Positions 25,924 to 27,991 of a stretch of DNA of 36,500 bases are shown here, piece after piece; within the stretch, counting starts at the first letter, position 1; the number at the start of each line of letters is the position of its first letter. This stretch comes from an uncultured Selenomonadaceae bacterium. Lineage in GTDB: Bacteria > Bacillota > Negativicutes > Selenomonadales > Selenomonadaceae. The notes below the pieces were generated by a model. It searched no databases, was not told where the DNA came from, and worked only from the letters and a program-made list of their open reading frames with translations. The translations under genes were made by a program, and so were the position numbers. The DNA is taken from NCBI GenBank assembly GCA_905236725.1, contig CAJOCT010000008.1, positions 3,782 to 40,281 of the forward strand, written 5' to 3'.

Positions 25924-27546
<1,623 letters not shown>

Positions 27547-27573: not shown

Positions 27574-27855
27574 TTACAAAACCGCCAAAATATCGCTTTC
27601 GCGGATTACGAGATAATCTTTTTCATCCACTTTGACTTCGCTGCCCGCGTATTTGTTGAAAAGAACTTCGTCGCCTTCTTTGACTTCGGGAACCGCGCGA
27701 GTGCCGTTGTCGAGCAATTTGCCCGTGCCGACCGCGATAACTTTGCCTTTCTGCGGCTTTTCTTTAGAAGTCTCCGGCATGATGATGCCGCTTTTTGTCT
27801 TCAATTCAACTTCTGCAACCTCAATGACAACTCTGTCTCCCAGTGGTTTTATCAT
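27574..27855 (-). CDS. groES: Co-chaperonin GroES (Hsp10)
   Basis: A 93-residue co-chaperonin that caps the GroEL ring. It shows the start [13 protein letters not shown], the mobile loop [17 protein letters not shown] (~20-36), [10 protein letters not shown] and the C-terminal [28 protein letters not shown] has TAGGAGG. First gene of groES-groEL; its leader contains an inverted repeat. Confidence 0.98.
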
Positions 27856-27881
27856 ATAAATCTGCCTCCTAAATTGGAATT

Positions 27882-27915
27882 TACCCTTGTTTCAATCTCT
27901 CAATCGAAACGGGTA
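27882..27915 (-). promoter_or_regulatory. Inverted repeat in the groESL leader, possible operator (not CIRCE)
   Basis: Plus-strand arms TACCCTTGTTTC (27882-27893) and GAAACGGGTA (27906-27915) are complementary apart from a two-base bulge, around a 12-base centre containing a GATTGA direct repeat (minus strand). It begins three bases after the -10 box, the position where CIRCE normally lies, but it does not match TTAGCACTC-N9-GAGTGCTAA or the CtsR heptamer. Confidence 0.6.
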
Positions 27916-27917
27916 CT

Positions 27918-27945
27918 ATTATATTCAAAAAAATCAAAAAGTCAA
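27918..27945 (-). promoter_or_regulatory. Promoter of groES-groEL
   Basis: Minus-strand TTGACT (27940-27945), 16-base spacer, TATAAT (27918-27923): a good vegetative-type promoter. Confidence 0.8.
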
Positions 27946-27991
27946 TACTCAAAAAAAATTGCCGAAAAAAATTTTTTTGGCTCAATAAATC

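Follow-up and report, generated by a model that had tools for sequence, protein, structure and literature searches.

The 36,500-nt stretch of DNA considered here, referred to as the window, comes from an uncultured Selenomonadaceae bacterium and raises the question of how the groESL genes are controlled in a genome in which the hrcA gene was not found. On the minus strand the window carries groES (27574..27855; NCBIfam NF001534, E 9.7e-42) and groEL (25924..27546; NCBIfam TIGR02348, E 6.8e-259), with serC divergent from the pair. The source genome (G000) is 2.65 Mb in size and 97% complete, and the nearest named GroES records are those of uncultured Selenomonadaceae or Selenomonadales; ruminants are the source of many. 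The groES promoter, also on the minus strand, consists of a -35 hexamer TTGACT (27940..27945) and, at a spacing of 16, a -10 hexamer TATAAT (27918..27923); the ribosome-binding site AGGAGG lies at 27865..27870. By a rule-of-thumb estimate, transcription would start near 27911. The reading that we consider likely from the sequence evidence is that groESL is repressed by CtsR through a GTCAA repeat of 8-bp period on the -35 element, that an ancestor had dual control, that hrcA and its operator CIRCE have since been lost, and that a prominent inverted repeat downstream of the promoter is an mRNA hairpin.

Loss of HrcA and CIRCE

HrcA (PF01628) is present in 114 of 189 genomes of the family, but these are divided very unequally: 114 of the 123 genomes from other genera have it, and all 29 of those genera have it in at least one genome, versus 0 of 66 in the genus of the window. 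Among family genomes with a completeness of 90% or more and a contamination of 5% or less, HrcA was found in 84 of 99, and in 0 of the 14 own-genus genomes meeting this standard. In many Firmicutes, grpE lies beside hrcA. Of the 66 genomes of the genus, 60 have a GrpE match, so the genes of the dnaK operon are not simply missing, and these two results together indicate that incomplete assemblies do not explain the loss of HrcA.

The operator shows the same distribution. With up to two mismatches allowed, CIRCE occurs in 121 of 123 genomes of other genera versus 2 of 66 in the genus of the window; these two (G024 and G090) have one match each, and a reversed control pattern matches five own-genus genomes. 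The full element TTAGCACTC-N9-GAGTGCTAA has no match in the genome of the window at the same tolerance, and its half TTAGCACTC occurs neither in the window nor at grpE, clpB or ctsR of that genome. Judged from the genomes, hrcA and CIRCE have been lost from the genus. The preliminary description of this DNA is supported in part: the groES repeat is not CIRCE, HrcA is absent, a control of another kind is required and the leader is structured. It had also raised a second groESL copy driven by CIRCE; the genome gives one GroES match and no CIRCE (≤2 mismatches).

The inverted repeat and the groES leader

The repeat occupies 27882..27915 on the minus strand, where TACCC (27915-27911) and GTTTC (27910-27906) are followed by a 12-base spacer (27905-27894), GAAAC (27893-27889), AA and GGGTA (27886-27882). 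Its existence downstream of the groES -10 hexamer and the GATTGA..GATTGA direct repeat within the spacer are as previously described; it does lie just downstream of TATAAT, but at a distance of two bases rather than three. As RNA, and once G-U pairs are counted, the stem is stronger than had been noted: UACCC-GUUUCGAUU-GAGA-GAUUGAAAC-AA-GGGUA, with 14 bp, a GAGA loop and one 2-nt bulge. The 68-nt leader folds at -16.9 kcal/mol (z -3.62), a value equalled by none of 200 shuffles. Among 4558 window segments of 48 nt (step 16, both strands) the hairpin ranks 14th by z, and 46 segments have z ≤ -3.5; it is therefore well above chance for a fixed place, yet not unique. A start near 27911 would leave the outer arm partly untranscribed; a stable 5ʹ hairpin is itself a prediction.

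The leader was compared across the genus. Of the 66 genomes, 60 gave a GroES match, and 58 leaders were taken (G123, which is without upstream sequence, and G105 were left out), 57 of them with a promoter call (G009, whose sequence is cut, has none); the automatic call may be wrong in G003, G023 and G119. A stem often follows the -10 hexamer, with letters that differ between species. In G013, whose GroES is identical to that of the window, the loop is unchanged, as is most of the inner stem (GTTTCAGTTGAGAGATTGAAAC); in G008, G006 and G103 the letters of the hairpin differ from those of the window. The fold of the first 48 nt past the -10 hexamer is significant (p ≤ 0.05) in 21 of 57 leaders, with a mean z of -1.46, and in G002, G011, G019, G110, G023 and G096 it is no better than shuffles. 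A leader hairpin is thus common in the genus, not universal.

Covariation was tested in one clade of 32 sequences, with the spacer TTGTTGA or TTGCTGAAT, to which the species of the window does not belong. Changes on both sides occur at 5 of 11 pairs (13 cells), and the covariation score is 0.246 versus 0.202 (0/500 shuffles). Pairing is kept at 95% in the inner helix and 76% in the outer, and RNAalifold recovers an inner helix of 5 pairs only. The case for compensatory change is a moderate one.

These data bear on two ways in which the repeat might regulate groESL. One proposal of the preliminary description was an operator for a different repressor, one that would have taken the place of HrcA; the strong symmetry of the repeat, its location just past the -10 hexamer and the disappearance of HrcA and CIRCE from the genus all fit such a role. 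However, an operator used throughout a genus should keep its letters, whereas a hairpin need keep only its pairing, and here the letters vary, so the repeat is probably not an operator. Comparison of the groES leaders found that the arms are not conserved between species of the one genus, and compensating arm changes were seen in one clade. The arms are missing, moreover, from the related stress loci: the window has a single copy of GTTTC-N12-GAAAC, and none was found at grpE, clpB or ctsR in this genome. An operator of this kind is very improbable. The other proposal was an RNA thermometer in which heating frees the ribosome site; the leader is structured, and in the species of the window a 4-bp UUCC pairing with that site is indeed predicted. 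Yet the ribosome site lies outside the main hairpin, its predicted openness in the window leader is 0.34 at 30 C and only 0.37 at 42 C, and none of 56 leaders switches between these temperatures in silico. An Rfam search likewise returned no match above threshold, the three matches below family thresholds being at chance level, and a thermometer is also very improbable. Most likely, the inverted repeat forms a hairpin at the start of the groES mRNA and would affect the stability of the message.

A CtsR-type box on the groES -35 element

The absence of CIRCE had earlier been taken to point away from both classical repressors. In the case of CtsR this does not hold, as the genome encodes the protein and a CtsR-type box lies on the groES -35 element. 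The ctsR gene (PF05848, E 8.1e-30; G000 C92:2842-3045) specifies a product that matches the solved CtsR 3h0d over residues 4-150 (E 9.6e-23). CtsR was found in 177 of 189 family genomes, in 57 of 66 of the genus and in all 16 genomes examined from other families of Negativicutes; the nine own-genus genomes with no CtsR match include G100, which is 94% complete. In the genome of the window, ctsR stands alone, with no mcsA-mcsB-clpC after it and a solute-binding protein gene next (L340:386-1924). Further along the same locus (L340:3729-4744), a gene resembling aspartate-semialdehyde dehydrogenase is split between two overlapping open frames, through either a frameshift or a fault of assembly. 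CtsR has a glycine-rich wing loop whose sequence is RGLGGY, RGMGGY or RGLGGF in this genome (L340:386-862), in 18 other own-genus genomes and at five outgroup loci, unlike the RGGGGY of Geobacillus CtsR (3h0d). According to PMC5506225, a glycine-rich loop is the part that is sensitive to heat.

The box was sought with a matrix trained solely on 23 ctsR promoter regions from other genera, 21 of which have a site, without any groES or grpE sequence; these promoters read GTCAA-N3-GTCAA. Among 72,968 positions scored in the window, the top score (19.8) falls on the groES -35 element at 27931..27947 on the plus strand (AAATCAAAAAGTCAATA), with the core ATCAA-N3-GTCAA at 27933-27945 and a period of 8 bp. 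The runner-up (13.2) lies within a tRNA-Arg gene, and the ctsR promoter of the same genome scores 15.6. At groES as at ctsR, the core promoter therefore carries GTCAA as a direct repeat in tandem.

The box overlaps the -35 element, whose own consensus provides one half-site. Since groES and grpE promoters were located through TTGAC[AT] or a similar sequence, which contributes one half-site, an anchored control was run. Other TTGAC[AT] sites exceed the 99% level of the window in 3 of 64 cases within the window and 15 of 252 in the flanks of groES loci, and a second half starting TTG follows in 0/64 and 7/252, respectively. Above the same level are 22 of 57 groES promoters of the genus (35 fall below) and all 30 grpE promoters, the latter being the 30 best-scoring of 60 genomes. 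The grpE core promoter is much like that of groES and reads TTGAC-N3-TTGTC in 26 of 30, where the second half-site is one change from the family box. At groES, 31 of 57 promoters have TTGTT as second half-site, which differs from TTGAC by two changes; the direct-repeat form is found in the genome of the window (TTGAC/TTGAT) and in three others (TTGAC/TTGAC). The claim is accordingly strongest for the genome of the window and for grpE and clpB, and weaker for groESL in the large TTGTT clade, where promoter sequence suggests that CtsR control may be weak or lost.

A pattern search across the genus identified further sites. The 13-mer TTGACWTTTTGWC occurs 161 times in the 66 genomes versus 10 times for the reversed pattern. 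Among the 150 matches listed, 48 are at grpE and 18 at groES; 41 of the 84 others were read, giving 12 clpB promoters, with most of the other 29 inside open frames. Ten of these clpB genes are confirmed by NCBIfam and two (L318, L325) were named by eye; that 12 of 12 clpB promoters have the box is circular, since they were selected by the motif itself. The -35 element TTGACWTTTTGTC is found ten times in six own-genus genomes (six at grpE, two at groES, one at a clpB gene that NCBIfam confirms and one in an open frame), and twice in outgroup G065, upstream of hrcA and an HtpG-like gene (both named by eye). A first joint groES/grpE promoter pattern, which was too strict, had no match in the genome of the window. 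Several isolated observations were made alongside. In two own-genus genomes (L314, L319), TTGACTTTTTGTC stands at promoter position before what by eye resembles an Rrf2-type regulator gene. TTGACWTTTTGAC occurs six times in G007, never at its grpE. In the genome of the window an open frame appears, by eye, between grpE and dnaK (L212).

Relatives that retain HrcA indicate how this arrangement may have arisen. Named groES loci were scored in 31 of 80 cases, picked by organism name, along with 20 hrcA loci from the family, 19 of which have CIRCE in range. In HrcA-bearing Selenomonadaceae the box lies upstream of CIRCE at 7 of 7 groES and 17 of 19 hrcA promoters. Outside the family it lies at 1 of 13 groES and 1 of 8 hrcA promoters of other Negativicutes, and was found in 0 of 11 groES promoters of Bacilli. 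The likely order, from this distribution, is that the family gained the box at chaperone promoters and the genus then lost HrcA and CIRCE.

Two other explanations of the -35 element deserve attention. The sequence TTGACWTTTTGTC might be a palindrome, GACA-N3-TGTC, recognized by another heat-shock repressor, or simply a strong sigma-A promoter retained through common ancestry. The symmetric form at grpE and the resemblance of the element to the hrcA promoters of relatives can be read in this way. Such a reading is nevertheless unlikely: a matrix built from the ctsR promoters of other genera alone detects the element, groES has the direct-repeat form in the genome of the window and three others, and TTGAC[AT] sites elsewhere seldom have the second TTG half. 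Alternatively, heat-shock repression may have been lost altogether, leaving groESL constitutive in the genus and both box and hairpin as leftovers. The temperature of the rumen is stable, which would favour such a loss, as would the degenerate second half-site in more than half of the groES promoters; but the box is strong in the genome of the window and is kept at every grpE promoter of the set, making constitutive expression quite unlikely.

Control by CtsR alone is what we infer for groESL, since CtsR is present, the best hit in the window is on the groES -35 element and the same box recurs at grpE and clpB. The points against it are the degenerate groES half-sites, the altered TTGTC half-site at most grpE promoters of the set, the lone ctsR gene, the nine genomes without CtsR and the overlap of box and -35 element. 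In the proposed mechanism, CtsR would bind the GTCAA direct repeat on the -35 element and keep RNA polymerase from acting until the repressor is inactivated by heat. An ancestor of the family would have had both controls, with the CtsR box on the -35 element and CIRCE further downstream; the genus would then have dropped hrcA and CIRCE, leaving CtsR.

Spacing of the box and comparison with known systems

In the 23 ctsR promoters of other genera, pairs of period 8 were found on 21 strands versus 0.55 in shuffles (17 versus 0.1 for exact pairs), and pairs of period 10 on 3 versus 0.2. Among the ctsR promoters of 16 further Negativicutes families, 15 also have a GTCAAA pair of period 8 when one mismatch is allowed. 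The published CtsR box, as given in PMC12634643 and PMC1409795, is A/GGTCAAA-NAN-A/GGTCAAA, and the half-sites in the DNA of the 3H0D complex are 10 bp apart as listed in PMC6480146. The canonical CtsR box was considered at groES and rejected, the half-sites there being 8 bp apart rather than 10. The canonical box is likewise a tandem GTCAA direct repeat on the core promoter, and the repressor here matches 3h0d; the difference is the spacing, because of which the element is called a CtsR-type box. That such boxes repeat every 8 bp across Negativicutes appears from these promoters to be a new detail. Within the literature covered, to which subscription journals and regulon databases do not belong, no description of an 8-bp CtsR spacing was recognised, nor any work linking CtsR with Selenomonas, or CtsR with Negativicutes and a regulon. 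A broader claim can be put forward only tentatively, at somewhat less than an even chance: that CtsR of all Negativicutes uses the 8-bp repeat, that one rumen genus, having lost HrcA and CIRCE, has it as sole heat-shock operator at groESL, grpE-dnaK and clpB, and that a compensating RNA hairpin replaced CIRCE in its groES leader.

If the proposed CtsR control is correct, the genus would be a second, independent and genus-wide case in which the HrcA circuit was given up and CtsR took over. As sister genera with HrcA are available for comparison, the rewiring of a core stress circuit could be studied stepwise, and the class-wide 8-bp box would allow a direct test of how a CtsR dimer accommodates an altered half-site spacing.

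Two known arrangements are close to this one. Oenococcus oeni, which has neither hrcA nor CIRCE, is, according to PMC6305308, the sole member of the Firmicutes known to control dnaK and groEL through CtsR alone; it shares with the present genus the presence of CtsR and of its operators at chaperone genes. The differences are that the present case lies in Negativicutes, spans 66 genomes of one genus and has a box of 8-bp period, and that its CtsR control is predicted only. Dual control by HrcA and CtsR is described for staphylococci and streptococci in PMC11298487, PMC6305308 and PMC3199253, with CtsR boxes and CIRCE in tandem in staphylococci (PMC11298487). In these dual systems both elements are found at groESL, and in staphylococci also at the dnaK operon, much as in HrcA-bearing Selenomonadaceae, whereas the HrcA half has been lost in the genus of the window. 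By analogy, the window appears to hold a system that works like that of Oenococcus oeni and descends from a dual state like that of staphylococci.
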